From positions 45,820-109,819 of IMG/VR virus record IMGVR_UViG_3300026484_000095: 64,000 nucleotides of DNA; one strand, given 5' to 3'. Both the position numbers and the translations under genes were made by a program. The notes under the pieces are model-generated. The model searched no databases. It saw nothing but the letters and a program-made list of their open reading frames with translations, and was not told the DNA's origin. This document shows positions 21,486 to 63,987 of the stretch, one piece after another (within the stretch, counting starts at the first letter, position 1; the number at the start of each line of letters is the position of its first letter). Source of the stretch: a virus.

Positions 21486-22696
21486 TGGCAAACAATGAAC
21501 CAAGAAGAAGAAAAAGAAGAGTACCTAAATCAAGTGCTACAAAAACAAGTCAAGCAGGAACAGATTTAAGAGAAACACCTGCTAATGTAAATACAGATGG
21601 TGCAGAAGCAACTCATACAGTTTCAGTTAATAAAGATTATGGAGATAGTGCGATATTCACTCTTTCTAAAAATCAGTTAGCTCAAATTGTAAAAGCAATG
21701 AAACCTGTTGTAAGAGAAGATAAGTTCAGATTTGAGATTGGAACTGATGGTGATATTACTGTTTCAGTAGATGAGCAAGGCTTTATCTTATGTATCAAAT
21801 TGGGAACAACTGATGTTCAGGCTGATAAACCTTTCGTGTTCTATATGGATAAGTCAGTTCTCAGTCGTATCACTTCTGTTGTTGCAGATGAGATTAAATT
21901 CAATATGACAAAAGAGACTATGTCTATTGAGGTTGGTGGAACTGATATTAATCTAGGTCTATCTATTGAAGATGTAGAACCTGATATTTCATATTCAGCA
22001 GGTGTAACGGAAACAAAGTCAAGTGAGTGGTTACTGGATATTTTAAATAGAATATCTGTATCAAAAACAGCAAATGCACCATTAGCAAGTGTAATGTATT
22101 TTGGTGAAAACATCAAATACGGTTCTAAGAAAAATACATCTCTTATTAAAGATGGTCTATCTAAGACTAAAGCAGGGCTAGTACCTGAGTTCGTGCTGTA
22201 TCTGAAAAATATTGCTTCACTAGGCGATAATGTAGATTTCATTCTTGATGAAAAAGGTGGCAACTTTGTAGTTAAAGCTGATAATGTTTTCTATAAGACA
22301 AAACTGGTTAAAAACAAATTCCCCGTAGATATTAAGAAAGACCTCATTGATAATATGGAAGTTGAAGCAAACGGGGAGTTCAGCTCAAGTCCAATCCTTA
22401 TAAGTTTAGATAAACTGTCAATCCCTCTTATCGGTGCAGATAATGCCGAGTTAAATATGACTTTTAGTGAAGATGACCAAGAGGTTGAAGTCTTTGTTAA
22501 TAGTATAGGAAATCAAGCAAGTAAAGATACTTGGACGGCAGGTGTATTAGAGGGCGATGCAAGTGGTGTCCTTGATTTATACCACCTGATGAGTTCGTTA
22601 AGTGTAATGGACGATGATATTAAAATATCTATGTATAAATCTTTCGTATTGTTAGAGGACTCTAAACAGTATCTTCTGTTAAGTAAATATCTCTAA
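21485..22696 (+). CDS. Probable sliding clamp-like processivity factor
   Basis: 403 residues with a disordered basic head (1-50) and then repeating beta-alpha-beta units such as IFTLSKNQLAQIVKAMKP, FVFYMDKSVLSRITSV and IVKADNV-type strands, ending in SLSVMDDDIKISMYKSFVLL and YLLLSKYL. This pattern, and the ending in a hydrophobic strand, resembles DnaN/gp45 clamps. A clamp is expected because a DnaX-like loader is encoded at 44678. The identification is by overall pattern, not by a diagnostic motif. Confidence 0.45.
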   Translation: MANNEPRRRKRRVPKSSATKTSQAGTDLRETPANVNTDGAEATHTVSVNKDYGDSAIFTLSKNQLAQIVKAMKPVVREDKFRFEIGTDGDITVSVDEQGFILCIKLGTTDVQADKPFVFYMDKSVLSRITSVVADEIKFNMTKETMSIEVGGTDINLGLSIEDVEPDISYSAGVTETKSSEWLLDILNRISVSKTANAPLASVMYFGENIKYGSKKNTSLIKDGLSKTKAGLVPEFVLYLKNIASLGDNVDFILDEKGGNFVVKADNVFYKTKLVKNKFPVDIKKDLIDNMEVEANGEFSSSPILISLDKLSIPLIGADNAELNMTFSEDDQEVEVFVNSIGNQASKDTWTAGVLEGDASGVLDLYHLMSSLSVMDDDIKISMYKSFVLLEDSKQYLLLSKYL

Positions 22697-22704
22697 CCTC
22701 CTTA

Positions 22705-22730
22705 TAAGAGTGGGATTACCCCTGCTCTTA
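22705..22730 (+). terminator. Hairpin after the clamp-like gene
   Basis: TAAGAG...GGG pairs with CCC...CTCTTA about ten bases after the stop codon; only a short AT-rich tail follows. A second small stem, CTAAAAG/CTTTTAG, lies at 22748-22767. Confidence 0.4.
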
Positions 22731-22788
22731 GTTAATAATTTCCCCTACTAAAAGGTATATCTTTTAGATTAGATTAAAAAGGTATATT

Positions 22789-23229
22789 ATGAATAATCCA
22801 ATAATTCCACAAACTGCAAGTGTTAATTCTCCATCTATTGATAATCAAAGAGCTTTATCGTTATCTATGAACCATAGTGTCAATATAGCCAAGGACAATG
22901 ATACAACTGTGGTCTTTGTTTCAAATTTTGATATGCTTAATAGAATAAAAGAGCTAGATGGTGAACTCAACAAATACAGAGGTCAAGTGTTCGGTAAAGA
23001 CTGGGTAAAAGAAAAGCCCTCTAAGTATCAAACAGATGAGCTAACCTTACAATTAAAAGCTTTACAATCTTTTGAAATACCCGTAGTATTGAAAGCTATA
23101 CCAAATCCTGAAAAAGATATTGTTGAAGCTCTTATTGTACCCGAAGATGGCTATAAAATATCTTATTATGAAGACGCCTCTCGTCTTGGTATGGTTTATC
23201 AATTTAAAAGGATAGACAATGCAAGTTAA
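22789..23229 (+). CDS. Hypothetical protein
   Basis: 146 residues, not recognised. Polar N terminus and a predicted alpha/beta C-terminal half (VVLKAIPNPEKDIVEALIVP). First gene after a hairpin-containing 92-bp gap, so probably the start of a new transcript. Confidence 0.6.
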   Translation: MNNPIIPQTASVNSPSIDNQRALSLSMNHSVNIAKDNDTTVVFVSNFDMLNRIKELDGELNKYRGQVFGKDWVKEKPSKYQTDELTLQLKALQSFEIPVVLKAIPNPEKDIVEALIVPEDGYKISYYEDASRLGMVYQFKRIDNAS

Positions 23230-23452
23230 TATATTAAGAAAGATATTATCTGCTGTTTGTCCTATTATCTTTGTAGATAAGTTAAAAGGGGGATGTTTAA
23301 TACGAAAGAGGTTATTACATAAAGGCTACCAAGTGTCAAAGATTGATTATTTAGATAATGGGAAAACAATAATGGTAACTTGGATAGATGATTGTCCTAA
23401 TTGGGATTCGGTGTTAGAAACTATTAATATAGGAGGTAAATATGAAGTATGA
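23219..23452 (+). CDS. Small hypothetical protein
   Basis: 77 residues, overlapping its neighbours by 11 bases on each side, with AAAGGATA upstream. Not recognised. Confidence 0.5.
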   Translation: MQVNILRKILSAVCPIIFVDKLKGGCLIRKRLLHKGYQVSKIDYLDNGKTIMVTWIDDCPNWDSVLETINIGGKYEV

Positions 23453-25128: not shown

Positions 25129-25761
25129 ATGAACATATCATTAATCAAAAAAGCTTATAGACTATCTCAAAAGCATAAAAAAATCGTTAATACCTATCTT
25201 AAATCGAGAGGGTTGAAGAACTCTAAGATTAAGCCAATAGGTTATCTTCCATATTTTGAGATGAACAACTTTAAGATAGTGGATAGTATTCTTATCCCTA
25301 TATTAGATATTGAAGCTAACATAATGGGCTTTGAGACTAGAAGCTTAAAAACAGATGCAAAGGTTAGATATAATAAGGTCTTTACAGATGAAGAGCTTTT
25401 TATACCTCAATATGGGTTAAGAAATCCTAACTTCACAAGTGAGTATGTTATATTAACAGAGGGAGCTTTTGATACAGAGACCCTTATCCAATTAGGTTAT
25501 AATAGTGTAAGTGGTTTAAGAGCTTCAATGCCTAGTGCATTACTTCACTTCTTAGCTGTATTCTTTGATAAAATCATCATAGCATTAGATAATGATAAAT
25601 CGGGTATTAACAATACTAGGAGGATTATTCAGTTTTATAGTCGTTATTACCCTGATTTAGATATAGAAGTTTTGGAGTATAAAGGTAAGGATATTAACCT
25701 TGCAAAGCAGAAGTATATAAAAACATTGAGAAGTAGCTTAAAGAAAATTATCGTAAGTTGA
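25129..25761 (+). CDS. DnaG-type primase catalytic (TOPRIM) protein
   Basis: 210 residues, covering only the RNA polymerase core of DnaG: the N-terminal DnaG-fold strands (SILIPILDIEANIMGFETRS), TOPRIM motif E as LTEGAFDT and the metal-binding ALDNDKSGI. The N-terminal zinc-binding domain and the C-terminal helicase-interaction domain are absent. It would synthesise RNA primers, but may need a separate zinc or helicase partner. The stop overlaps a short stretch before the next gene. Confidence 0.8.
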   Translation: MNISLIKKAYRLSQKHKKIVNTYLKSRGLKNSKIKPIGYLPYFEMNNFKIVDSILIPILDIEANIMGFETRSLKTDAKVRYNKVFTDEELFIPQYGLRNPNFTSEYVILTEGAFDTETLIQLGYNSVSGLRASMPSALLHFLAVFFDKIIIALDNDKSGINNTRRIIQFYSRYYPDLDIEVLEYKGKDINLAKQKYIKTLRSSLKKIIVS

Positions 25762-38395: not shown

Positions 38396-39352
38396 ATGGT
38401 AAGAACAACTGTTAAATGCAAATTGGAAAATGCTGAAATCCCTAGATATGCAACTCTTGAAAGTGCAGGAGCAGATGCAGTAGCAAACGAAGATGTAATG
38501 TGGCAACCTATTTATAGTGAGCCTATTGAAATCTTTGATAGATTAAACATACCTGCAATCAATGATTCAAATGTTAAAGGTTTATCTGAAACAGTAAGAG
38601 GTATTAACCCACTGTATAAATCTATGCAAATCATTGTAGGTTGGAAAGCTATTGTTAGCACTGGTCTATTCTTAGAAATCCCAAAAGGTTATGAGATACA
38701 AGTAAGACCTAGAAGTGGTCTAGCATTTAAGCATAATGTAACAGTTATCAATGCACCTGGCACTGTTGATAGTGATTACAGAGGGGAAGTAAAAGTAGCC
38801 ATTATGGTAGCTGGTGCTTTGGATAAAGAGTTAGCTGTTACTGACAACAATGGTAATTTCATTTATTCAGATGACCCTGAAACAGTAGCAATGGAGACTT
38901 ATCCTATTCTACCAAAGGGGACAAAGATTGCTCAACTGGTTCTAGCGAGAGTAGAACAAGCAAGATATGTATTGTCTGAAAAGCTGAACTCAACAAGTCG
39001 TGGTGCAAATGGCTTTGGCTCAACTGGTCTTAAAGCAGAGGGTTCAACTAAGGTTGAAGTGGAGTTTAAAGTTGGCGATATAAATGTGCTTAATGCAACT
39101 GAAACAACTATCGCAAAGTTCATTCAGAGTTTAGAGCAGTATAACAAAGATATAAAAGGTTTAGACTTCATCTATGATAACAATGTAGCAGATGATAGAA
39201 TGTTGTTTGTTACTTATGATGTCTATGAGTTCGATTACTCTAAGCAAGATTTAGTAGATATTCTTAAAAGCACTATTGATTTGCTTGGTGGTCGTGATGT
39301 AGTAGAGAGAGCTTATCAAGAGCTACCTCCAATAAAAAAGCCTAGCTATTAA
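38396..39352 (+). CDS. dut: dUTPase with insertion and C-terminal extension
   Basis: Hydrolyses dUTP to dUMP. All five motifs of the trimeric family are visible: LESAGADAVA (I), RPRSGLAFKH (II), APGTVDSDYRGEV (III), GTKIAQLVLARV (IV) and SRGANGFGSTG (V). At 318 residues it is about twice normal length: about 55 residues are inserted after motif I, about 25 between III and IV, and a roughly 105-residue acidic C-terminal domain follows motif V. Start at 38396 is chosen because of AGAGGTG upstream; an ATG nine bases earlier lacks it. Confidence 0.9.
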   Translation: MVRTTVKCKLENAEIPRYATLESAGADAVANEDVMWQPIYSEPIEIFDRLNIPAINDSNVKGLSETVRGINPLYKSMQIIVGWKAIVSTGLFLEIPKGYEIQVRPRSGLAFKHNVTVINAPGTVDSDYRGEVKVAIMVAGALDKELAVTDNNGNFIYSDDPETVAMETYPILPKGTKIAQLVLARVEQARYVLSEKLNSTSRGANGFGSTGLKAEGSTKVEVEFKVGDINVLNATETTIAKFIQSLEQYNKDIKGLDFIYDNNVADDRMLFVTYDVYEFDYSKQDLVDILKSTIDLLGGRDVVERAYQELPPIKKPSY

Positions 39353-39370
39353 AAGATAGCATATCCATTG

Positions 39371-39396
39371 CAGTAAGGTGTTTTATCTCCTTACTG
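39371..39396 (+). terminator. Terminator-like hairpin after dut
   Basis: CAGTAAGG (39371-39378) pairs with CCTTACTG (39389-39396), followed by TGGTTTCT. The rest of the 183-bp gap is AT-rich with TTGACT (39494) and TATATAGTATAT, a possible promoter for the next gene. Confidence 0.5.
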
Positions 39397-39535
39397 TGGT
39401 TTCTAAGAGCTTCTATAAACAAAAATCCTAAACATTATATATAATCTATTAATAAATTGCTTAAAAATGCAAATAGTAGGTTATATATAGTGCTTGACTA
39501 CAAGTATATATAGTATATCAAATAAAGAGGAAAAT

Positions 39536-39979
39536 ATGGAAAAGTTAAGTAGTTTTAAGGCTAATAAATTAGCCGAAGAAGAATTGATATTTCAAAATCA
39601 GATACCTATCCAAAACATTAAGTATCTAAAAGAAGATATTGAAAATCTAAAAGAACCCAAATCTTTTGTTTATAAAGATTATCAGATTATATTGCTTAAT
39701 CGTTCAACTGTTACAAGTGTAGTGGCTTCATTTAAAGAAGTATCTTTTAGACTGTTCGCAAATAAGTATGAGAAAGTTCTAATGTTCTCACCTATCGCTC
39801 CTTATCATCAGAATTTGGATTTAGAGGATTATTGTCGTAAGGCAACTGATTACATTGCAGACTACTTTGAGGGCTTAGATAAAGGTGTTAAATATGATAC
39901 GGGGGATAAGATAACAGAACCTATCAAGAAGTTTCAGCTATGGAATTTCTATAACTATAAAGTTTATATATCGGCATAG
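39536..39979 (+). CDS. Hypothetical protein
   Basis: 147 residues from the ATG at 39536 behind AAAGAGG (an upstream in-frame ATG at 39494 has no ribosome site). Mixed alpha/beta, not recognised. Confidence 0.6.
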   Translation: MEKLSSFKANKLAEEELIFQNQIPIQNIKYLKEDIENLKEPKSFVYKDYQIILLNRSTVTSVVASFKEVSFRLFANKYEKVLMFSPIAPYHQNLDLEDYCRKATDYIADYFEGLDKGVKYDTGDKITEPIKKFQLWNFYNYKVYISA

Positions 39980-42317: not shown

Positions 42318-42882
42318 AAAAGGTGCTATCATATTATCGCTTACGGTGGGTCTATTAGGCTCTCCGTTAGTTATATCGGTGGAAGATAATATAAAGAGTT
42401 TAAGGAGCTTTACTGACAAACAAAAAGGTATCTTGATACAATCTTATCTTTATGCTGAGAGAGATGACCTCGGATTAACAATGTCTGCAATAGCTTGGCA
42501 CGAAAGTAATGCAGGTAAAAATCTAGTAAATTTAGGTGACCCTAGTTTTGGTATATACCATAATTTAGTTGGTTCTGTTATAAATAGATTAGGGTTACCC
42601 AACACTCTTTATTATAGAAATAAGATAGCTAATAGATTAGTTCAAGACCCCAACTTCGCAAGAAGTCAAGCTCTTAGCGAGTTGCTATATTGGAAAAGTC
42701 ATTACCTAAGAACAAGTGGAAAGCGATTACTATGGCAGAAGACTATCAGAAGCTATAATGGTGGAACAATGTGGAGAAATAAAGACACTGAGATTTATTT
42801 CAACAATATAAGAAATAAAATTAAGGCATTAAGAAAAGCTCCTTTTTTCAAGAACTTCCTACGAGGTAGAGGTGTAAAGTAA
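42310..42882 (+). CDS. Lytic transglycosylase-like cell-wall hydrolase
   Basis: 190 residues. A signal-anchor sequence (KGAIILSLTVGLLGSPLVIS) is followed by an SLT-like domain: IAWHESNAGKNLVN with the catalytic Glu, DPSFGIYHN and IRSYNGGT, typical of lysozyme-fold transglycosylases. It would cleave peptidoglycan at lysis or entry. The N-terminal signal suggests export through the host Sec system. Confidence 0.75.
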   Translation: MLRKGAIILSLTVGLLGSPLVISVEDNIKSLRSFTDKQKGILIQSYLYAERDDLGLTMSAIAWHESNAGKNLVNLGDPSFGIYHNLVGSVINRLGLPNTLYYRNKIANRLVQDPNFARSQALSELLYWKSHYLRTSGKRLLWQKTIRSYNGGTMWRNKDTEIYFNNIRNKIKALRKAPFFKNFLRGRGVK

Positions 42883-42890
42883 AAAAATCT

Positions 42891-42910
42891 CTATACTGTA
42901 AGGTATATAG
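42891..42910 (+). promoter_or_regulatory. TATAC...GTATAT dyad
   Basis: CTATACTGTAAGGTATATAG, an imperfect inverted repeat 26 bases before the ATG at 42936, similar to those at 7868 and 45924. Confidence 0.35.
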
Positions 42911-42935
42911 ATAAAATTGAAATAAAGGTGTAAAA

Positions 42936-43664
42936 ATGTCAGATACAAAAAATAAAAAGCTACTGCAAAGTCTTGGTGGCAAAGGTGAAAAGAAAGAACT
43001 ATTTGCTGTTAATTATGAGTATTTAGCGGATGAAAGTAAAACTATCGCTGATGCAATAAAAGAGCAAAGTAGCTTTAACGAAGTGTTCTATATCAAGTAT
43101 AACACTCTTGCTGAGTATCAGCTACAAACAACTATCAAAAGTTGGCTATATGGTCTAATGCTTCACTCTCAAATCGCAACATCAGATGAACACGGTCTAA
43201 GTCCTCTATGTGTATTGGAGAAAGCTCTAAGAGTTCTACCCGTGAAAGCTAAGTTCCTATTTGAAGCAACTGAACATACAAGCTCGGTTTATCCTGCAAT
43301 CAAAGAGGGAACCCCACTGGTTAATAATACAAAGAGTGGTTATATGCCAATCATTAGTTTATACACTAAGGCTCTTAATGGAGAGAACAACAAAAATGAT
43401 TATGTTGAAATCACTCCTGATTTAGCTATGTCGGTGCAAATCTTAGATAAACATTCATTAGAGATGACAACAGATTTTGCAGTAGAGTTTAGTAAAATGT
43501 TGAAGTTCGCATTTACAAGCGACGGTATGGACTTAGTTGGTGGAACAATCAGCTTAGGTATCGATTCAGGTAACCTTATGAGACTGTTCGATTTTGATTT
43601 AATCGTAAAAGATTTAGAGGGCAACAAGTTAAGCACTGAGCAGATAGTCGATAAACTATCTTAG
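42936..43664 (+). CDS. Hypothetical protein
   Basis: 242 residues, alpha-rich first half, mixed second half (DLVGGTISLGIDSGNLMRLF). Not recognised. Followed by a hairpin before the HNH gene. Confidence 0.6.
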   Translation: MSDTKNKKLLQSLGGKGEKKELFAVNYEYLADESKTIADAIKEQSSFNEVFYIKYNTLAEYQLQTTIKSWLYGLMLHSQIATSDEHGLSPLCVLEKALRVLPVKAKFLFEATEHTSSVYPAIKEGTPLVNNTKSGYMPIISLYTKALNGENNKNDYVEITPDLAMSVQILDKHSLEMTTDFAVEFSKMLKFAFTSDGMDLVGGTISLGIDSGNLMRLFDFDLIVKDLEGNKLSTEQIVDKLS

Positions 43665-43674
43665 AGGTTTTATC

Positions 43675-43700
43675 CTTACATCTCTAAAAAGAGGTGTAAG
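43675..43700 (+). promoter_or_regulatory. 11-bp hairpin sequestering the HNH endonuclease RBS
   Basis: CTTACATCTCT (43675-43685) pairs with AGAGGTGTAAG (43690-43700, one U-G), with loop AAAA. The 3' arm is the ribosome site immediately before the ATG at 43701. Such hairpins are known to silence homing endonucleases (for example I-TevI of T4) on early transcripts. Confidence 0.6.
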
Positions 43701-44018
43701 ATGGCAAAGAACTGGCGAAAAACAAGAGATTATAGAGTTTGGAGAGTGTCTGTAATAAGACGAGATAAAGTTTGTCAATGTTGTGGGTCACCTAAAAAAA
43801 GACAAGCTCATCATATAGAAGATGGCAGTCATAACAAAGAACTTAGGTTCAATGTAAAGAATGGTATTACATTATGTAAAGATTGTCATATACAACTTCA
43901 TACAAATTTCAAAAACAGTTATAGAGAAAAAACAACTAAAAAGGATTTAGATAATTTTCTAGCACTTAGAGATTATTTCTTTAAGAAAGTAGAAGAGGAT
44001 TTAAGTCGTTCATTGTAG
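43701..44018 (+). CDS. HNH homing-type endonuclease
   Basis: 105 residues. CQCCGS, AHHIEDGSHN, NGITLCKDCH and LHTN make a complete HNH core with the zinc CxxC pairs. Stand-alone HNH nucleases of this size in phages are usually homing endonucleases; packaging HNH proteins sit by terminase, which is not the case here. Its RBS lies in a strong hairpin. Confidence 0.85.
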   Translation: MAKNWRKTRDYRVWRVSVIRRDKVCQCCGSPKKRQAHHIEDGSHNKELRFNVKNGITLCKDCHIQLHTNFKNSYREKTTKKDLDNFLALRDYFFKKVEEDLSRSL

Positions 44019-44038
44019 ATTATTATAAAGGATTAAAT

Positions 44039-44293
44039 ATGAGTTATAGAGAGACTGTGGAAAGTATTAGAAATGAGTTTCTTAGTATAATAGAAGAGAA
44101 GAACTCTTGGGGAAAGAGGGAGCTAGAATTGGTAATCGAGAAAGCTATATCTAATCACTTTATTTCTATGCAAGATAATGCTAGTAGGATTAAAGACACT
44201 AGCTTGAAAGTTATATCTAGTAAAAAGGTAAAAAATCAAAATGAAAATGATGTTAGACCAAAAGCATTAAAGAGGAGACGAAGAAATGTCTAG
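44039..44293 (+). CDS. Small hypothetical protein
   Basis: 84 residues, helical, with a basic C-terminal RPKALKRRRRN. Overlaps the next gene by 8 bases. Confidence 0.55.
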   Translation: MSYRETVESIRNEFLSIIEEKNSWGKRELELVIEKAISNHFISMQDNASRIKDTSLKVISSKKVKNQNENDVRPKALKRRRRNV

Positions 44294-44677: not shown

Positions 44678-45910
44678 GTGAAAGTAGAAACTGTCTCTAA
44701 AGCTCATAGGCTATTTACAAAATACAGACCTATGTCTTGGTCTGATGTAAGAGGTCAAGACCATATCATTTCTATTATGAAAGGTTTGTTAGAAAGGGAA
44801 ACATATAAGTATATCAATGGAATTATACTCGGAGGAGCTGCCGGTGGTGGAAAAACTACACTAAGTCGTTTGTTCGCTAAGGCTATAAATTGTCAGTCTG
44901 ATAATAAACCTTGTAACAAGTGTGATAACTGTAAGAGGTTCAATGCTAATGAATATCCTGACTACATTGAGGAAGATGGAGCTGAATACAATAAGAAAGA
45001 GGACATAGCAGTTCTTAAAGATTTAGCTAATCAATATGCTAGTGTACCTGATGGGTTTAGAATAATCTACATTGATGAAGCCCACGCTTTAAGTAATGCC
45101 GCTTGGGATATTCTATTGAAACAGTTAGAAGAGGGAGAGACTAGAACAATATGGGTCTTTGCTACAACGGAACCTGATAAGATTAGAAGTGCTATTGTAT
45201 CAAGATGTATGCCTTTTAAAGTTAAACCTCTTGGTTCAAAAGAGATAAAAGCTGAACTCGTTAATATCTGTGAAAAGGAGGGTATAGAGTACGATGACAT
45301 AAGTATAGAAAAATTAGCTATTGCTTATCGTGGTAGGACTAGAGATGCTATTAAAATTCTTAATATGTATTATGATAGTCAAGGTAACTTCAAAAACATT
45401 GATTTATTATCTATCGAGGAACAAATGATAGATATAATTAAACTAGCTTTATTTAACAAGATGGAAGAGTGTTATAAAAAGTTAGAAGAGCTTATAACAG
45501 TAGAGGAACACGAGTATGCTACAGCTATGAGTAATCTTTTGACAACCACATTCCTATATCCGTCTGTGCCTCCTATGGGTATTCAAGAGCAGTTAATATC
45601 TGATTTCAAAGATATTATAGGTAAGGACATAAAAGATTTAATTGATTTATATATGAAGTATAAACCTTCAAATTTTGATGAGATGAAAATCTTTTTACTC
45701 ACAGTTGCAGAGCTAGGTATTAATTTCAATAATGTAGAAGTCGTAGAAGCCAACTCACAAACAAAGAAGAGACGATTTGTTGAGGGTGCAGATAATCATT
45801 TAGGAGTTAAGAAAATAGCTAAGAAAGATACTAAAGTCAAGAAGACTGTGGTCAATGCAAAACAGAGAGCTAAGAAAAAGTTTGAGAACTTAGGATTTAG
45901 TTCTAAGTGA
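44678..45910 (+). CDS. DnaX-like clamp-loader ATPase
   Basis: 410 residues from GTG at 44678. Loads the sliding clamp on DNA. Walker A GGAAGGGKTTLSR, the DnaX zinc module CQSDNKPCNKCDNC, Walker B IIYIDEAHAL, sensor I TTEPDKI and the SRC Arg-finger motif (IVSRC). Followed by a helical collar domain and a basic tail (KKRRF, KKTVVNAKQRAKKK). It would act on the clamp-like protein at 21485. Confidence 0.9.
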   Translation: MKVETVSKAHRLFTKYRPMSWSDVRGQDHIISIMKGLLERETYKYINGIILGGAAGGGKTTLSRLFAKAINCQSDNKPCNKCDNCKRFNANEYPDYIEEDGAEYNKKEDIAVLKDLANQYASVPDGFRIIYIDEAHALSNAAWDILLKQLEEGETRTIWVFATTEPDKIRSAIVSRCMPFKVKPLGSKEIKAELVNICEKEGIEYDDISIEKLAIAYRGRTRDAIKILNMYYDSQGNFKNIDLLSIEEQMIDIIKLALFNKMEECYKKLEELITVEEHEYATAMSNLLTTTFLYPSVPPMGIQEQLISDFKDIIGKDIKDLIDLYMKYKPSNFDEMKIFLLTVAELGINFNNVEVVEANSQTKKRRFVEGADNHLGVKKIAKKDTKVKKTVVNAKQRAKKKFENLGFSSK

Positions 45911-51109: not shown

Positions 51110-52660
51110 ATGAAGAAAGAAGCTTTTGTAGAACGAGCCAATAAAATTCATAATGGATTATATAAATATGACAATTTACCTCAAATTGTAAAAGTAAAAA
51201 ATAAATATGATATATTATGTCATTCTTGTAATTCCTTATTTAATCAACAACTACAGTCCCACTTGGCTGGTAGAGGCTGCCCTAATTGTAGAGGGGGGAT
51301 AAAACTACCCTTACAATTCTATATAGATAAATGCAGGGAAAATAATAAAGACTATTCCAAAATTGCTTTTAAAGATAATGGTATTGAAGCTAAGTGTAAT
51401 AAATGTGGCAACTTGATATTCAAGAAAAATAAAAATCATATCTATACTAAGGGTTGTAAATTTTGTGCCAATATGAAAATGAAGCAATTTAAAACCAAGA
51501 CCTTAGAGGACCTATCAATACCAAAAGGAACTAAGTTACTAGATTATAAAGGTCATTCACAAAAAGCTGTCCTTTATTGTATAAAGCATAAATGCACCTA
51601 TGAGCAACTTCCTAGTTATATAGGTAAGAAACAAGGCTGTAAATATTGTAATTCCAAACTAAAAGATTTAGATTATTTTGAAAGTAGAGTTGATTTAGAT
51701 TTATGGGATACAACTGATTCAGTTTATAAAGGTGCTAAGTCTTACATAACTGTTAAATGTAAAAAGTGTAATCATATTCAGATTAAAGAAGCTGGTAGTT
51801 TAATGCAAAGAACTGCAGGGTGTTCTAAATGCTCTAACTCATTCAATTCTTCTAAAGAGCAGAAAGAGTTATCAGATTGGTTATCTTCTTATACAGATGT
51901 ACAATTAAGCTACAGACCTAAATGGATGAAAGGTAAGGAGCTAGATATTTACCTCCCTAAGTTTAATTTTGCTATAGAGTACAACGGAGTATACTGGCAT
52001 AGCTCTCATTTTAAGAGCAGAAATTATCATAAAAGAAAAACTGATTTATGCAATGCAAATAATGTAAATCTATTTCATATTTGGAGTGACCTTTGGTTCA
52101 AAAAGAAAAGTCTTATAAAATCTATGCTATTGAATAAATTGGGTATTACTCCTTTTGTAATAGGTGCTAGAAAGTGTAATATAAGGAAAGTAACTATGCA
52201 GGATTCATTTGATTTCTTAAACTTAAATCATCTCCAAGGTGGTAATAAAGGTAGCATAATCAGTTATGGTTTATTTTATGATAATGAACTATTATCTATA
52301 ATGACCTTTAGACATAGAAAGGATTGGGAGCTAGTTAAGTTTGCTACCAAGACCTATACATTAGTTCAAGGTGGTTTTTCCAAATTGTTAAAGTATTTCA
52401 TAAAAGAACATTCTTGCAAAACCTTATACTCCTTTATAGATAGGTCTTGGTCTTTAGGTAATGTTTATTATAGAAATGGTTTCAAGACTATAAAAACCAT
52501 ACGACCTGATTATGTTTATATTAGTCCTAATAAAATAAATAGATTTCATAAGTCTATTTTAAGACAGGAAGAAAAGAATAGACAACTAAATTCTTATTTA
52601 AAAATCTATAATTCAGGTTTAATAAAAGTTATATGGAGGGACTCCTATGGCTTTAGTTGA
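51110..52660 (+). CDS. Zinc-ribbon plus Vsr-like homing endonuclease next to terminase
   Basis: 516 residues. Four zinc-ribbon-like repeats (CHSCN...CPNC, CNKCGN...CKFC, CIKHKC...CKYC, CKKCNH...CSKC) are followed by an EDxHD/Vsr-like nuclease core: EQKELSDWL, ELDIYLPKFNFAIEYNG and YWHS, NVNLFHIWSD. A C-terminal domain (QGGNKGSIISYGLFYDNE, FIDRSWSLGNVYYRNGF) is shared with the endonuclease at 60079. It starts on the upstream stop, its 3' end overlaps the terminase start by 14 bases, and the terminase RBS (GGAGGG) lies inside it. It has probably been inserted between the upstream gene and terL. Confidence 0.85.
   Translation: MKKEAFVERANKIHNGLYKYDNLPQIVKVKNKYDILCHSCNSLFNQQLQSHLAGRGCPNCRGGIKLPLQFYIDKCRENNKDYSKIAFKDNGIEAKCNKCGNLIFKKNKNHIYTKGCKFCANMKMKQFKTKTLEDLSIPKGTKLLDYKGHSQKAVLYCIKHKCTYEQLPSYIGKKQGCKYCNSKLKDLDYFESRVDLDLWDTTDSVYKGAKSYITVKCKKCNHIQIKEAGSLMQRTAGCSKCSNSFNSSKEQKELSDWLSSYTDVQLSYRPKWMKGKELDIYLPKFNFAIEYNGVYWHSSHFKSRNYHKRKTDLCNANNVNLFHIWSDLWFKKKSLIKSMLLNKLGITPFVIGARKCNIRKVTMQDSFDFLNLNHLQGGNKGSIISYGLFYDNELLSIMTFRHRKDWELVKFATKTYTLVQGGFSKLLKYFIKEHSCKTLYSFIDRSWSLGNVYYRNGFKTIKTIRPDYVYISPNKINRFHKSILRQEEKNRQLNSYLKIYNSGLIKVIWRDSYGFS
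52022..52084 (+). repeat. 63-bp near-identical repeat (copy 1)
   Basis: Matches 60682-60744 with two mismatches in 63 bases, inside the two related endonuclease genes at the KRKTDLCNANNVNLFHIW core. Confidence 0.85.
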
Positions 52661-56538: not shown

Positions 56539-57192
56539 ATGAGAATCATAGCTGAAATAACTAAGGATTTTTTAAACAGAAATCTAAATCTCCCTGAGGA
56601 AGAGATATATAAAACCCCCGCTGTAAATGGTGGTAAAAAATTCCTAACTGTAATCCGTAGGGGGGATAGTCCTGCAAATTATTATTACTTTTCACAAAGA
56701 CTAGGCATAAATAGTATACGGTTTATTTTATATGATAAAAGCAGACCTAAACCTTTTTGTTTGTTAGAGCAGTTAGAAGCTAGTCATAATAAACTAAAGA
56801 TAGGTGCTTATAGTGGGAGCTTAGATAAGAAAGGTTATACACCTTTACAGGTATGTAGAGAAGAGGTAAACGAAGAAAGTATGTTCAACATTGAAGAAGA
56901 TGATATTGGTCGTATTACCTTAGTATCCGTTCGTAGTGTAGGCTCACAATCCAACGAAAATGCTTATCTCTATTTAGTAGATGTAGAGGGGTTACCTGAA
57001 GTAGGAACTAATCCTGAAAATGAGTGGGAAGAGAATACAAACCACCATTGGCTAAGTCTTGAAGAGGTTAAAACAAAAGGTGACTGGGCTTCTTACATTA
57101 TAGCTGATAGTGTAAGAGTTCTAAATACAGATAAAACACAAAACGGTCAGATTATTGCAAGTGAGGGTTTAAATAGTAGGAGGAGAAGCTAA
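56539..57192 (+). CDS. Nudix-like hydrolase with M-R-I-I-A N terminus
   Basis: 217 residues. The Nudix region is GSLDKKGYTPLQVCREEVNE followed by ESMF. It has REEVNEES of the box (REUxEExGU) but the upstream Glu is Gly, so the box is partly degenerate. Nudix enzymes hydrolyse nucleoside diphosphates linked to X. The N terminus MRIIAE is shared with the next genes. It may be a virion-packaged enzyme. Confidence 0.6.
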   Translation: MRIIAEITKDFLNRNLNLPEEEIYKTPAVNGGKKFLTVIRRGDSPANYYYFSQRLGINSIRFILYDKSRPKPFCLLEQLEASHNKLKIGAYSGSLDKKGYTPLQVCREEVNEESMFNIEEDDIGRITLVSVRSVGSQSNENAYLYLVDVEGLPEVGTNPENEWEENTNHHWLSLEEVKTKGDWASYIIADSVRVLNTDKTQNGQIIASEGLNSRRRS

Positions 57193-57752
57193 TGAGAATA
57201 ATTGCAAGTAACAATAAGTTAACTGTATATCACGGAGATGATTTCAACACATCTAAGATAGATTATAGATATATGAACAATGGGAACAACGAGCTAGGCA
57301 TTGGTATATATTTTGGCAATCTACAAACTGCACAAGCTTATGGGAAAGATATAGTATCTACAGAAATTGACCCTAAGAAATTTGTAGAAGCTAGGGGTTA
57401 TGCCTCAGACTATATTAAGACTTCTGTTTTAGCTAAGTTCTTGAAAGAGTTACATAAGTTGGATAATGAACCGTTATATTATTATATAACAGATTTTGGG
57501 GTAGAGGCTAATGAACCTGAGGATATTGAAGATTATATGTTAGAAGAACTAGCAGAGAATATAATCGACGAAGAGATTAGAAATCTGCAAATAGATTTAG
57601 CACAAAAGTTTGACCATCATCTAAAAGAGTTCGTTCATCTTTGGAACAAGATTATCAAAATAGATGGGACTAAGATGGATAGAGGTGGTGTAATAGGACA
57701 CTGGTTCTGTATCATAAATCCCAAATATAAATTAACTAAGGTAAAGGTTTAA
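57192..57752 (+). CDS. ADP-ribosyltransferase-like protein with M-R-I-I-A N terminus
   Basis: 186 residues. TVYHGDDFN (YHG at 13-15) and GIGIYFGNLQTAQAYGKDIV match the H-Y and strand-helix pattern of PARP/ART-like folds, which move ADP-ribose from NAD+ to a target. The third catalytic residue (Glu) cannot be fixed by eye; candidates lie in EDIEDYMLEELAEN. Placed between a Nudix-like and a basic protein by the portal, it may be delivered with the DNA, as T4 Alt is. Call based on motifs only. Confidence 0.55.
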   Translation: MRIIASNNKLTVYHGDDFNTSKIDYRYMNNGNNELGIGIYFGNLQTAQAYGKDIVSTEIDPKKFVEARGYASDYIKTSVLAKFLKELHKLDNEPLYYYITDFGVEANEPEDIEDYMLEELAENIIDEEIRNLQIDLAQKFDHHLKEFVHLWNKIIKIDGTKMDRGGVIGHWFCIINPKYKLTKVKV

Positions 57753-57754
57753 TT

Positions 57755-58150
57755 ATGAAAATTATCGCAATGGCAGTAAAAGCTGAATATAATCCTGATA
57801 GAAAAAGCTACATAAGGTATCATAGAACCAAGGGTCTATTTAATAAGAGAGCAATGAAACTTATTAAAAGAAATAGGAAAAATCATAAAAGAACTCCTCT
57901 ACAAAAGTTATGTAACGGTAAATTAGATGATAGCTGTATAATGAGAGCTATGAAATCAAACAACCCACATCTAAGAAAGTCTGCTAATTTTGTTCAAACT
58001 ATGAGAAAAATTGCAGGTCGTAGAGTTGGCAAGAAAGATAAATACAATATGTCAAAACGAAAAAAGAAAGACAAAATGTATAATCTACAACATAGACAAG
58101 ATTTAAGAAGAGTTGAGAGATGGAGAAAACTTGGAGGTAGAAAGAGATGA
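57755..58150 (+). CDS. Small very basic virion-region protein
   Basis: 131 residues, Lys/Arg-rich throughout. N terminus MKIIAMAVKA has the shared signature, and MRKIAG at 83-88 matches the portal motif. It could be a DNA-binding internal head protein. No known family. Confidence 0.55.
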   Translation: MKIIAMAVKAEYNPDRKSYIRYHRTKGLFNKRAMKLIKRNRKNHKRTPLQKLCNGKLDDSCIMRAMKSNNPHLRKSANFVQTMRKIAGRRVGKKDKYNMSKRKKKDKMYNLQHRQDLRRVERWRKLGGRKR

Positions 58151-58554
58151 GGATTATAGCAAATATCAAAGAAGATATAAACCCTAGATTGTTTTCTAAG
58201 GCTTTAACAGATGGTCAAAAAGAGGACAAGGGTGTTATTGGTATAGATTTTGACGGTGTTATTCATAGATATTCTAAGGGTTGGCAAGATGGCTCTATCT
58301 ATGATAAACCCATCGAGGGAACAGATAAAGCTCTAACAGAACTGCTTGATAAAGGTTATAAGCTTTTTATCTTTACAGCTAGACCTCTAAAAGGTATTAG
58401 AGAGTGGTTAAAATCTAATTTTGAAGATGAGAGAATACATAACATAAACCTAACAAATAAAAAGCTCCCTGCTCAATTATATATAGACGATAGAGGTTAT
58501 CGTTTCAAAGGTTGGGGTGGTGCAATGAACTTTGTAGAAAAAGGTTTAGTATGA
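58147..58554 (+). CDS. HAD-superfamily phosphatase with M-R-I-I-A N terminus
   Basis: 135 residues. DFDGV with Asp34 and Asp36 (motif I), FTARP (motif II) and YIDDRGYRF (motif IV) form a small HAD phosphatase related to phage polynucleotide-phosphatase-like proteins. N terminus MRIIAN is the shared signature. Overlaps both neighbours by ATGA. Confidence 0.8.
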   Translation: MRIIANIKEDINPRLFSKALTDGQKEDKGVIGIDFDGVIHRYSKGWQDGSIYDKPIEGTDKALTELLDKGYKLFIFTARPLKGIREWLKSNFEDERIHNINLTNKKLPAQLYIDDRGYRFKGWGGAMNFVEKGLV

Positions 58555-58895
58555 AAATTATAGCTATTAGAGTAAGTCCTATTATAAACATCACAAAAGA
58601 TATAATAGGGCGACGCAAATCTCAAAAAGAGGTAATAGAAGAGATAGAAGCTCTGTCTAAGAGATACCCTCGTAATAGCTTATTTAAAGGGCTTAGAAGA
58701 GAATACGGAGAAAGAGAGGTAAGGGATTTTGAGGAAGTATTGAAAAAAGTGAAAAAGCAATATGAACGAAATCTATTTATGAAGTCTATCTATTCTCAAA
58801 TTAAAGAAAACACTCCTTTGGGTATCTACCAAAGAAATCAATTAGGTAATAACTCTCCCATCTTTTCTATATATGCTGAAAAGAAAAACAGTTAA
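58551..58895 (+). CDS. Small hypothetical protein with M-K-I-I-A N terminus
   Basis: 114 residues from the ATG at 58551 overlapping the previous stop. N terminus MKIIAI; the rest is basic and helical (EEVLKKVKKQYERN). Not recognised. Confidence 0.6.
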   Translation: MKIIAIRVSPIINITKDIIGRRKSQKEVIEEIEALSKRYPRNSLFKGLRREYGEREVRDFEEVLKKVKKQYERNLFMKSIYSQIKENTPLGIYQRNQLGNNSPIFSIYAEKKNS

Positions 58896-58932
58896 GTTTT
58901 GACTTAATTGTTTAAAAATAGGAGAAATAAAA

Positions 58933-60063
58933 ATGAGTATAATTGCATTTGATAAGAATACTGTTGATAACAGTAAAGCTCATAAAAAAGATGTTAGTAA
59001 GGTCAGAGCACCTAATCTAGCTACAAGAAACAAAAAAAGAACTTCGAGAACAAGTATCAAAGCCCCAAGTATTCCTAATAAAATCAAAACCCCTACATTA
59101 CCATCTGTCGGTTTATCTGACCCCAATGAAGATGTTGGTAGTATTTTAAGACCAACAGAAATCGACCCTAAGGATAAGATGAAAAAGGTTAAGTGTGACC
59201 AATTTAATTGTTACATTAATGAAGATGGAACAGAAGCCCACATTAGACACAACTCTAATCCTAGTTTAACAAAGATAGATGATAATGGAGAAACTGTTGA
59301 AGTGCTATTCAATAGTAATGATTGGGTGTTTTCTCAAACAACTGCTGTTGCAAGTGTCGATATTATAGAGGGGTTTAGAATTAAACCTGAAACAGCTAAG
59401 TTCGTTAATAACAACGGAAATGCTTTTAGTGATAGAATCGTTCAAAAGTATTATAAAACATTTATCGGTGCACACAATTATAAAAATCATCTACAAGACC
59501 CTGCACAAAGTTATGGTATCATTCTTGATGCAGTATTGAGAGAAGTACCTATCCCTGAAACAGAAACATCTATTTTCTACATAGACTGTTTAATAGCTAC
59601 AAATAGACATAAAGACGATAAATGGGCTAAGGCTATTGAAAATGGTGTCGTTAAATTTGTTAGTATGGGTGCAGAGAGTTCTAGTTTTAGATGTACTAAT
59701 TGTGGTAACATTGCTACAAGGGTTCAGGATTTTTGTGACCATTTTAAATATCATAAAGGTAAGTATTATATAGACTCAAAGGGTAGAAAGCTTAGAATAG
59801 CTCATTTAGTAGAGGACTATAAGAATGCACAAGGTCAAGGTTATGTTGAGTTTATAGAGTTAAGCTATTTAGATATTAACCCCGCTTTTCAAGGTGCATC
59901 TCAAGCTCATATACTACGAGTTCCTACAAACACTGATGTAGCGATGAATCTTCCTATTGGCTATCTAAGTAAAAGTGCATTTAGAACTTGGGTTGATTCT
60001 TATAAAATCAAAAAAGAGGGTCAAGAGGTAGATTATAATACCCTTATAGATAAGGTATTATAA
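58933..60063 (+). CDS. Candidate prohead protease with M-S-I-I-A N terminus
   Basis: 376 residues. The section FIGAHNYKNHLQDPAQSYGI (H-containing) and VVKFVSMGAES (Ser) resembles the His-Ser layout of S78/gp21-like head maturation proteases. A Cys cluster FRCTNCGN...FCDHFKYH suggests a zinc site. Basic N-terminal part follows MSIIAF. If correct, it may cleave the proteins that carry the M-R-x-x-A motif. Structural function is inferred from location and motif pattern. Confidence 0.5.
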   Translation: MSIIAFDKNTVDNSKAHKKDVSKVRAPNLATRNKKRTSRTSIKAPSIPNKIKTPTLPSVGLSDPNEDVGSILRPTEIDPKDKMKKVKCDQFNCYINEDGTEAHIRHNSNPSLTKIDDNGETVEVLFNSNDWVFSQTTAVASVDIIEGFRIKPETAKFVNNNGNAFSDRIVQKYYKTFIGAHNYKNHLQDPAQSYGIILDAVLREVPIPETETSIFYIDCLIATNRHKDDKWAKAIENGVVKFVSMGAESSSFRCTNCGNIATRVQDFCDHFKYHKGKYYIDSKGRKLRIAHLVEDYKNAQGQGYVEFIELSYLDINPAFQGASQAHILRVPTNTDVAMNLPIGYLSKSAFRTWVDSYKIKKEGQEVDYNTLIDKVL

Positions 60064-60078
60064 TAAAAGAGGGTTACA

Positions 60079-61326
60079 ATGAACAGAGGTAATGAAACTC
60101 AAAAGAGAAATTCTTTAGAGAAATTTATGAAGTGGGTTGAAGATAATTCAGACTACACTTCAAATTTTGTATATCATTATGATACTTATATTAATGCTAC
60201 AAAGGGTTTAGAAGTAACTTGTTTAAAACATAATGAGAAATTTAGAAATAGTTTAGCTAGACTAAAAGAGGGTAGAAGCTGTAAAAGATGTTACTACGAA
60301 AAGTTATCTAAAGCCCAATTTAATAACCGTTCTTACAGTATAGAGGAATTGGAAAAAAGATTCCCTACTATATCTTTTGATGAAGCTGAATACATTAATG
60401 CAGTAACTCCTATGAAGCTTTACTGTAAAATACATAAAGAGTATTTTTATAAAGATTATGACCATCTTATAAGGGGTCAGGGCTGTAAAAAGTGTTCAAA
60501 TAAAGGGGTATCTAAGGCTGAGAAAGACTTAGCAGAATGGATAAATTATTATACTCCTATTATAGAGAATTATAAACCTAAATGGTTACAAGGTATGGAG
60601 TTAGATATATTCATACCTGAATTTAATCTAGCGATTGAATATAACGGTCTTTATTGGCATAGTGAAGATTTTTTAGATAAGAATTATCATAAAAGAAAGA
60701 CTGATTTATGTAATGCAAATAATGTAAATCTATTTCATATTTGGGAAGATGAACTTCGAGATAAGACTGATATAATTTTATCAATGTTATTACATAAAAT
60801 GAAATTAACTCCTTTTACCATAGGTGCTAGAGAATGTACTGTAAAAGTTGTTCCTCTTAAAGAAGCTAATGAGTTTTTAGAGAATAATCACTTATTAGGT
60901 GGAAATAGGGCTGTTACCATAAAAGGTCTTTATTATGATAATGAGCTATTGAGTGTTATGACTATGCGAAAAGATGGTGATTATTATAACCTAACAAAGT
61001 TTGCTAACAAAACTTATACAAATGTTCAAGGTGGATTTAGTAAGCTATTAAAGTCTTTTGAGTTAGACCGACCTATAATCTCTTATGCAGAAGATAGATG
61101 GAGTTTGGGTAACTTATATTCTCAAAATGGGTTTAACTTCTCCCATAAATCTCCTCCTAATTATTTTTATGTAAAAGATGGAATTTCTTATAATAAAAAA
61201 TTATTCACTAAGAAGAGATTAAAGAAGCTATATAATTGTAAGGTAGATAATGAGAGGGACTTTATGTATATGCAAGGGTATAGAAGAGTTTATGAGAGTG
61301 GACTCTCTTGTTATATAAAGGATTGA
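60079..61326 (+). CDS. Vsr-like homing endonuclease before the Pol A fragment
   Basis: 415 residues, paralogue of the protein at 51110 but with fewer zinc ribbons (CLKHNEK...CKRCYYEK, CKIHKE...CKKCSN). Nuclease core MELDIFIPEFNLAIEYNG and YWHSED, then KTDLCNANNVNLFHIWED, and the shared C-terminal domain. Its stop is one base from the ATG of the polymerase fragment. It probably invaded, and fractured, the Pol A gene. Confidence 0.85.
   Translation: MNRGNETQKRNSLEKFMKWVEDNSDYTSNFVYHYDTYINATKGLEVTCLKHNEKFRNSLARLKEGRSCKRCYYEKLSKAQFNNRSYSIEELEKRFPTISFDEAEYINAVTPMKLYCKIHKEYFYKDYDHLIRGQGCKKCSNKGVSKAEKDLAEWINYYTPIIENYKPKWLQGMELDIFIPEFNLAIEYNGLYWHSEDFLDKNYHKRKTDLCNANNVNLFHIWEDELRDKTDIILSMLLHKMKLTPFTIGARECTVKVVPLKEANEFLENNHLLGGNRAVTIKGLYYDNELLSVMTMRKDGDYYNLTKFANKTYTNVQGGFSKLLKSFELDRPIISYAEDRWSLGNLYSQNGFNFSHKSPPNYFYVKDGISYNKKLFTKKRLKKLYNCKVDNERDFMYMQGYRRVYESGLSCYIKD
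60682..60744 (+). repeat. 63-bp near-identical repeat (copy 2)
   Basis: Partner of 52022-52084; see there. Confidence 0.85.
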
Positions 61327-61327
61327 T

Positions 61328-62080
61328 ATGTCAGATATTTTAGATAAGATAAAAAATTATGATGATAATGAAAAACCTCATTTCCCCCCAATCGGCGATT
61401 GGCACGGAATCAATGCTACAGCATTTTTCGGCTTCGATAAACTAAAACAATTATATCTTAGTAGTAAAGATGGTATATTGGAGTATGAAAAGAAATACCG
61501 TAAGAAAGCTAAGGGGATGGGTCTAGGTCTGAACTATGGGGGTACTTATAAGGTTCTTCAATCTATTCTAGGAGGTTCAGAAGCAGAAAGTATCAAATTG
61601 TTTTCTAACTATTTCAAACATCTTAAATACTTTAAAGCTCACTTAGATAAGCTAGTAAAAGAAGCTAATAAGGTGTTATATGTTAAAACATTCTTAGGTC
61701 GTAGATTATACCTACCCTCATTAGGAAGTGAAAATTGGCGAGAGAAAGCTAAGGGTCGTAATAAGATATATAACTCTCCTATCCAAGCATTTGGTGCCGA
61801 GACAATTAAACTTATTTTAAATGCTGTCGGTAACTGGGTAGAGAGTAATGATTTAAGTCAACTGCATAATAACAATATATGTAAGAATTATTATCAAAGA
61901 ATTGTATCAATCGACATCAAAGAATGTGATGAGTTCTTAGAGTCATATTTGGAAACAATACCTAATGGCAATGTTAAGCTATTGGTAAAAGATGGTAACA
62001 AGGTAGTTAAAGAGTTCGACAGAAATCTAAAATTATCTATGAGAGATATAAACAATTTTAATATGAACTTGGAGTGGTAA
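61328..62080 (+). CDS. Family A DNA polymerase, fragment with motif B
   Basis: 250 residues. It starts about 20 residues after the expected motif A (DYSQIELR), which is absent. It has GDWHGINATAFFGF, motif B region KKAKGMGLGLNYGG, KTFLGRRLYLPSL and NSPIQAFGAETIKLILNAV of E. coli Pol I type. Motif C is in the next ORF. The N-terminal palm, exonuclease and motif A are not in this window. So this is part of a split polymerase that must combine with another product. Confidence 0.85.
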   Translation: MSDILDKIKNYDDNEKPHFPPIGDWHGINATAFFGFDKLKQLYLSSKDGILEYEKKYRKKAKGMGLGLNYGGTYKVLQSILGGSEAESIKLFSNYFKHLKYFKAHLDKLVKEANKVLYVKTFLGRRLYLPSLGSENWREKAKGRNKIYNSPIQAFGAETIKLILNAVGNWVESNDLSQLHNNNICKNYYQRIVSIDIKECDEFLESYLETIPNGNVKLLVKDGNKVVKEFDRNLKLSMRDINNFNMNLEW

Positions 62081-62081
62081 T

Positions 62082-62639
62082 ATGGGTTTCAAGAGGTCTA
62101 AATATAAAACTGTTGATGATTATAAAAAATCAGTTCAGCAAGATATGGTAGTGTTAGTTAATACAGTCCACGATGAGATAGATTATTTGATAGATGGTAA
62201 ATTGTTAAAACCTATTCTGAAAAAAGTGTCAAATATTTCTACATTGAAAAAGACTATTAATAAGTTAGGGCTACCATATCTCAACTTCTTATTTGATATA
62301 GAGTTCGATAAGTATAATAGTTGGACTTCAAAAGAAGCTCTAAATGTTTATGAGGTTGCAGGTTCTAAGTATGAGCTAGAAGCAATGAATAAACTTAAAT
62401 CTATAAAGGGGAGGGATAGTGATGATAGGTTGTTAGATTCAGATAATTCGGGTAACTCTGATGAAGATACAATAGAAGAGGTTATCATAGACGGTGGGTT
62501 TGAAAAGCTTGATGAGTTAATTAACGCAATTCAAAATTCCGTAGATAAGGGCGAAGTTCGTTTCGGTATCGAAGTGGACGGGGAAGTGATGTATTATAAA
62601 AATCTAGTTAGCAAAAAAGTAATAACTAAGTTTTTGTAA
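62082..62639 (+). CDS. Family A DNA polymerase, fragment with motif C
   Basis: 185 residues in another frame, its ATG one base after the previous stop. It has VNTVHDEIDYLI (motif C HDE) and C-terminal palm sequence, then a 70-residue acidic extension. In this frame there is a stop just upstream (62064-62066), so it is translated from its own ATG, likely by reinitiation. Together with 61328 it covers the C-terminal part of Pol A. Confidence 0.82.
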   Translation: MGFKRSKYKTVDDYKKSVQQDMVVLVNTVHDEIDYLIDGKLLKPILKKVSNISTLKKTINKLGLPYLNFLFDIEFDKYNSWTSKEALNVYEVAGSKYELEAMNKLKSIKGRDSDDRLLDSDNSGNSDEDTIEEVIIDGGFEKLDELINAIQNSVDKGEVRFGIEVDGEVMYYKNLVSKKVITKFL

Positions 62640-62721: not shown

Positions 62722-63987
62722 ATGGACAAAAATGTTCAAATTTTAGATACAATGTCTAGTCTATCTAACTCATTAGATGCGATAGCACAAAAGACTATTG
62801 CAGGTGAGTATGATGTTGACTCTTTACAAAGTAAGCTAGTATCAGTTGCTAATGCTTTGGAAACAACTGCTAATGCAGAGGGTTATATGTTGGGTCAAAT
62901 TTCTGACGCAGATTCATTTTTTACAATGGCTTCAACAACTGATTTTGATGATGCTTATTCAAAAGTTCTTGCCGTTTCTGCACAAGCTACTTTGGTAGGT
63001 CAAATGATACAAGGTGAGCTACAAAAACTTGGTGTAGTTGCTGATGATACAGAAGAAGAAGATAAAGGTGCAGAAGATTCGGATAAAACTGTCGAGGATT
63101 CAGTAGATGATGTTGAAGACTTTGATGAAGATGATACACCTATGGATTCTACTAGTGCTGATATTGAAGATTTAAGAAGTCAAGCAATGGAGTATTTAGA
63201 GGAGGGTCTTTTAACTGAAGCACAAGATACTTTAGAAATTATAGCTGAACTTCAAGCAGAGGCTAAAATTGGTGATGGCAAAGACAAATCAATCAATCAA
63301 AGATTAGATGATATAGCTAAATCGGCCGTTAGTCGAACTTTAAAGAAAACTGGAAATGGTGATAAAGCAAAAGGCGATAAAGCTGCCGCTAGAAAAGCAC
63401 TGGGTGATGCCAACTCAAAGACAGAACATCTTAGACAATACGATGGAGTAACTTCTGGTCGTAAAGGTGGTAATGTTAGAGTTGAAAAAAAGGAAAACGG
63501 TAAGGTAGGTTTAAGTGATGGGAGACCTTCTGCCTTAGGGAAAATGAAAGTCGGAATGAAAACAGGTAAAGCTAGTCCCCTTAACATTAACCATAAAGGT
63601 GGGATGGTAAAAAGTAATAAAGTTAACCGAAAACCTATAGGAGCAGCCCCCTCAGCAACTAAAATGGGAGCTAAAAGAGTAATGAGAACAAGAGCAGATG
63701 AGCTAAAAGCACAAGCTATGGAACTTCTAGCAGATGGATTCACTGTTGAGGCACAAGAGCTTATGACTATCGCTAAAAGATTGGGTGTAGGTAATACACA
63801 CGGGGAAATTAATCCACAAGTGAAAACCGTTGAAAAAGAGGGTGTTAATGATATTATCAACACAGGTAGTAAAGATACAAATCCACCTGCTGTAAAAACA
63901 ACAGCTTCAACAACTGAGGATGCAAGTGCTACTGCTCTAAGTTCAGAAGCAAGTACCCAACCAATGGTTAATTGGAATTTTAATTAA
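62722..63987 (+). CDS. Virion-region protein with helical repeats (scaffold-like)
   Basis: 421 residues. Acidic middle (about 112-140) and basic second half. Two copies of a helical repeat are visible: DLRSQAMEYLEEGLLTEAQD and ELKAQAMELLADGFTVEAQE, about 170 residues apart. GKASPLNINHKGGMVKS matches the small protein at 29514, and MRTRA (321-325) follows the M-R-x-x-A motif. Low-complexity charge and position after the protease suggest a scaffold or core protein. The window ends 13 bases after its stop with an A-run that leads to the next ribosome site. Confidence 0.6.
   Translation: MDKNVQILDTMSSLSNSLDAIAQKTIAGEYDVDSLQSKLVSVANALETTANAEGYMLGQISDADSFFTMASTTDFDDAYSKVLAVSAQATLVGQMIQGELQKLGVVADDTEEEDKGAEDSDKTVEDSVDDVEDFDEDDTPMDSTSADIEDLRSQAMEYLEEGLLTEAQDTLEIIAELQAEAKIGDGKDKSINQRLDDIAKSAVSRTLKKTGNGDKAKGDKAAARKALGDANSKTEHLRQYDGVTSGRKGGNVRVEKKENGKVGLSDGRPSALGKMKVGMKTGKASPLNINHKGGMVKSNKVNRKPIGAAPSATKMGAKRVMRTRADELKAQAMELLADGFTVEAQELMTIAKRLGVGNTHGEINPQVKTVEKEGVNDIINTGSKDTNPPAVKTTASTTEDASATALSSEASTQPMVNWNFN

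Follow-up and report, generated by a model that had tools for sequence, protein, structure and literature searches.

A viral family A DNA polymerase apparently encoded in four separate pieces at three loci

How far can the core of a DNA polymerase be taken apart at the gene level and still be put together as an enzyme? The question is raised by a viral DNA stretch of 64,000 nucleotides (IMG/VR record IMGVR_UViG_3300026484_000095, positions 45,820 to 109,819; hereafter the window), in which two pieces of a family A polymerase lie behind a homing endonuclease gene among head genes. Family A includes Pol I and the Taq and T7 polymerases. The source record (109,819 bases; here G000) is probably a fragment of a viral genome; it was compared with its relatives G001, G002, G003, G004, G006 and G008, and with Tunturiibacter phage Tunturi_5 and LR745208. 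Palm, fingers and thumb are not found on one chain; they are spread over four open reading frames (ORFs) at three loci, here called A, N, F and C (Table 1). On the reading favoured here, with a probability of about 0.74, these four chains would form one working enzyme by non-covalent association.

Table 1. Positions of the polymerase pieces and associated genes. Record positions refer to G000; L008 and L009 are loci of G001 and G002, respectively.
Feature	Position	Strand	Basis or remark
A piece: variant motif A of palm, 303 amino acids	record 38800-39711		DVKSQEPR...LSREPNWV
N piece: 3'-5' exonuclease and thumb, 591 amino acids	record 42451-44226		upstream of window
F piece: fingers, motif B and NSPIQ	window 61328..62080	+	PF00476, orthologs, dN/dS
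C piece: palm with motif C, polymerase C terminus	window 62082..62639	+	motif C profile, orthologs, dN/dS
Homing endonuclease gene at upstream edge of F	window 60079..61326	+	phrog_559 1.6e-87, phrog_3339 2.4e-84
Head maturation protease gene, upstream border of insert	window 58933..60063	+	phrog_18299 2.9e-15
Next head-region gene, downstream border of insert	window 62722..63987	+	ortholog behind C in G001 and G002
Further phrog_559/3339 endonucleases	window 51110-52660; L008 6514-7992, 8741-10432, 13338-14975; L009 10981-12558
Genes with M[KRSN]II[AS] N terminus	window 56539-60063; L008 1064-6514; L009 2065-5273

The first-pass annotation described an ORF with motif B and an ORF with motif C, one base apart and behind a homing endonuclease gene, and both are present as described; a gap of one base also separates the endonuclease ORF from F. 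The F protein matches PF00476 (3.2e-20) at profile positions 201-326, which is the fingers part only. Its motif B, RKKAKGMGLGLNYGG, fits the pattern RxxxKxxx[FYL]xxxY with R58-K62-L66-Y70, an NxxxQ motif is present (N149/Q153), and across motif B the protein aligns with the Bst and Klenow polymerases. F starts just before a GDWH (DIH-like) segment, past the expected end of motif A. The C piece is too diverged for Pfam. Its motif C reads NTVHDEIDYLI, with the residues H30-D31-E32, and the pair formed by C and its G002 counterpart ranks first (z 6.8) against a motif C profile of intact polymerases; the null for the profile tests consisted of the 94 conserved ORF pairs common to G000 and G002. 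Similar predicted secondary structure hinted at a C-terminal module common to F and C, which profile comparison did not support.

One residue of F merits separate mention. L66 (window 61523-61525) places Leu at the equivalent of F762 in E. coli Pol I; G001 and G002 keep it, and Phe is found instead in the intact polymerases of G006 and G008. Taq polymerase with Leu at this position is a slower, more accurate enzyme (PMC6302109).

The N piece lies upstream of the window. It matches PF01612 (exonuclease; 1.2e-11) and the polymerase family phrog_17, and its exonuclease residues D114/E116, N187/D191 and Y267/D271 are invariant between G000 and G002. The protein ends short of motif A, about 45 residues past a GINAQGVP (NLQNIP-like) segment; the stretch of about 45 residues that joins the parts corresponding to N and F in intact relatives contains motif A. 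This is a break that the first-pass annotation had not seen. It had suggested looking in the rest of the genome for an ORF that ends just after DYSQIELR, and this string is absent from the whole record. Another candidate for the N half, at record position 25610, is by appearance a separate DnaQ-like exonuclease. Genes of GGDEF-like and HD-GYP-like appearance are situated directly behind N (L005 3000-3575; G000 record 44812-45282), which suggests phage interference with cyclic-di-GMP signalling; they are absent behind N in G002.

Motif A had been reported as missing. This holds for the endonuclease, F and C genes, within or adjoining which none was found, and a six-frame search of the G000 record and two relatives gave no canonical motif A. 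It does not hold for the record as a whole, where a separate gene, A, appears to carry a variant form. In this gene, the segment DVKSQEPR would be motif A with the catalytic Asp and Glu; the match is short, and the assignment is less certain than those of the other family A motifs. The gene stood out only once the profile took in intact phage-G-like polymerases, having been a weak top-ranked match earlier. With the profile of intact polymerases, A and its ortholog in G002 (22366-23271, 47% identical) are the best full-length-gene match in each record, and the pair is the sole outlier among the 94 (score 28.5 vs 17.1 for the next; mean 11.3, standard deviation 2.4, z 7.2). When the G000 A protein was compared with three intact polymerases by BLAST, G008 gave 8e-5. 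The motif A region reads VVATDVKSQEPRAFTLLSREPNWVSVF in G000, VVSNDIRSQEPRGFTILSKEPNWVSVF in G002 and IVAIDYSGEELRIATNLSKEPKWVDEF in the intact polymerase of G008. D180, E185 and R187 are invariant between G000 and G002 (the D180 codon is at record 39337-39339), and identity between the two A proteins is 72% around motif A vs 44% elsewhere. In both records, the gene order is A, a sigma-like gene, a CHC2 primase gene and N, with four small ORFs between the latter two in G000. No counterpart of the A gene turned up in four records whose polymerase is intact.

The alternative that survives best concerns this gene. N, F and C would be polymerase pieces, but A would be unrelated to the polymerase and carry its motif by chance, and the real piece with motif A would be in an unsequenced part of the genome. 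The match indeed spans only about 32 residues, outside which the A protein, with its two Cys clusters, has no convincing counterpart, and a further piece could be hidden from view in a record that is a fragment. A chance motif is nevertheless unlikely in view of the distance of the pair from the 93 others, the exact register of D, E and R, the concentration of conservation in the motif region, and a gene that lies near N in both records and is absent where the polymerase is intact.

The breaks are conserved, for F and C in three records, for N in three and for A in two. F is 71% identical in G001 and 54% in G002, C 64% and 44%, respectively, and N 53% in G002; F and C are adjacent in G002, and the N piece of the more distant G003 has the same end, before motif A. 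As the break is kept in relatives at 42-72% identity, it is, by this comparison, older than the window. Ratios of non-synonymous to synonymous substitution rates (dN/dS; determined by NG86 and rough, with dS >1) are 0.15-0.26 for F, 0.14-0.32 for C, 0.31 for N and 0.29 for A, compared to 0.22 for the terminase and 0.24-0.43 for the protease. Judged by these ratios, all four pieces are under purifying selection, which is consistent with their assembly into an active enzyme.

These values also bear on the choice, left open by the first-pass annotation, between a multi-chain enzyme and a relic. A decayed polymerase, with the phage relying on the host enzyme or on one from the missing part of its genome, would be in keeping with scattered pieces and with a record in which no intact copy was found. 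The multi-chain enzyme is the more likely of the two, and the relic is improbable because the dN/dS values of the four pieces (0.14-0.32) resemble those of terminase and protease. In addition, every catalytic residue is kept in relatives at only 42-54% identity, and neither a family B (PolB) nor a family C (PolC) polymerase was found in either of the two large records.

Separate pieces could also be joined into one chain by trans-splicing introns or split inteins. The latter occur in polymerase genes of phages (PMC6892783), and in G003 (L037 9908-13104) the N half is itself broken in the exonuclease domain, with an endonuclease gene between intein-like halves that give weak intein-domain matches. 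At the ends of N, A, F and C, however, intein motifs were not seen by inspection, in agreement with the earlier remark that position 61328 bears no intein C signature; the searched regions gave no Rfam match, and each piece starts and stops at codons of its own, with new termini that are conserved. Splicing of either kind is thus very improbable. Artificial frame breaks, conceivable in a metagenomic assembly with ORFs only one base apart, can practically be dismissed, as the frame break is kept in three independent records (G001 and G002 show the same breaks), a 563-amino-acid endonuclease gene separates F from C in G001, and other pieces are tens of kilobases apart.

Non-covalent assembly is the best reading because intein motifs, Rfam matches and PolB or PolC are absent within the scopes given above, and the expected catalytic residues are present across the four chains; the split gp43 and the NrdA of Aeh1 are precedents for such assembly (PMC2988022). 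In a large phage with a phage-G-like head, A and N would be provided from among the replication genes, and F and C from the head region. The four chains would most likely assemble into one polymerase without covalent joining, and its active site would take one metal-binding aspartate from A and the other from C. Some points weigh against this picture. All records are fragments, and an intact polymerase could lie elsewhere in the genome; the short alignment of A (about 32 residues) gave weak single-sequence E-values (0.23 and 3) when first searched with a profile; and structure and complex prediction gave nothing usable, the AlphaFold models of F and C being too poor. A much less probable extension is that, with an active site drawn from four chains in two expression units, the polymerase is complete only once the head genes are expressed. 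If true, replication capacity would be coupled to virion production. A promoter scan around the endonuclease/F/C block gave a signal not clearly above that of shuffles.

How did the pieces come to be where they are? In the more distant relatives Tunturi_5, LR745208, G006 and G008, an intact one-ORF polymerase is found directly behind the CHC2 primase gene. N is likely at the ancestral site, and A, F and C moved, because N sits behind the same primase gene (directly in G002; in G000 and G003, small ORFs intervene). For F and C, the counterpart is G004, whose terminase is 43% identical: its protease gene is followed, about 45 bases on, by the next gene (unmatched), with neither endonuclease nor polymerase pieces between. 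Because this head region is without the insert, endonuclease, F and C probably moved into the head region together, as had been proposed from the window, where the gene before the endonuclease, a suspected protease, indeed matches a head maturation protease family. The simplest account would be the entry of one endonuclease-linked block carrying F and C, with the endonuclease as agent suggested by its position. An endonuclease of the same family occupies the same place in G001 and is broken in G002, and the second one in G001 lies exactly between F and C. It is probable that endonucleases of this one family either gave rise to the breaks or took advantage of them, and that they brought F and C to their present site; no homing endonuclease was seen at the ends of N or A.

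Two further features of the lineage were noted. The terminase gene, the polymerase pieces and the gene for the major head protein have several homing endonucleases of phrog_559/3339 in their surroundings. The N terminus M[KRSN]II[AS], written in differing codons, recurs in otherwise unrelated genes that lie between portal and head protease; the carriers are NUDIX-like, HAD-like, acetyltransferase-like and metalloprotease-like proteins, one resembling (by eye) an ADP-ribosyltransferase, and the protease itself, and a few genes outside this region also have it. This resembles a tag at the level of the protein, possibly a peptide that targets the capsid, as on the internal proteins of T4.

The split-polymerase lineage comprises the three to four records found, each a fragment. 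Further viral and genome scans returned only the same records or ordinary intact polymerases; C and A had no relative in the phage collection, and phage G gave no PF00476 match. In this lineage, a family A enzyme has apparently been cut through the palm, with its catalytic aspartates on different polypeptides, and selected while relatives diverged to 42-54% identity. This offers a test of how much a polymerase core can be broken up without losing the ability to assemble, and of whether dispersal of this kind is driven by homing endonucleases. Phages such as these will be overlooked or misjudged in searches for intact polymerases.

To our knowledge, from a limited literature search, split family A polymerases of this kind have not been described. 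The locus resembles known genes in pieces, in that the gene is continuous in relatives and present here as separate ORFs, with a homing endonuclease at a break. Among split polymerases in that search, the closest is a two-chain family B enzyme, the split gp43 (gp43A/gp43B) of Aeromonas T4-like phages, whose chains co-purify and are active (Petrov et al. 2010, as described in PMC2988022). There too, a phage replicative polymerase is produced in separate chains, and in one case the break holds a homing endonuclease gene; the two genes are adjacent, whereas here four chains of a family A enzyme come from three loci and the cut runs through the palm. In Aeh1, insertion of mobE splits the NrdA gene and the separate chains still work (PMC2988022). 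This is likewise an essential enzyme gene divided by homing endonuclease insertion, but the enzyme is a ribonucleotide reductase of two adjacent chains, without relocation. An endonuclease gene also lies between replication-gene halves in fractured genes with split inteins (Dassa et al. 2009, cited in PMC6892783; MIJ3 PolB), an arrangement that G003 resembles inside its exonuclease domain; these genes carry intein halves, which inspection did not reveal at the breaks between N, A, F and C. The intact phage-G-like polymerases (Tunturi_5 gp5, LR745208, G006 and G008) share domain order, CHC2 primase neighbour and related head proteins with the lineage described here. Some contain inteins: an intein-like insert is present at the conserved PIQG motif in G006 and G008 (L070, L071), and LR745208 appears to have two. 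In each of these relatives, the polymerase is a single ORF, whereas here it is split.
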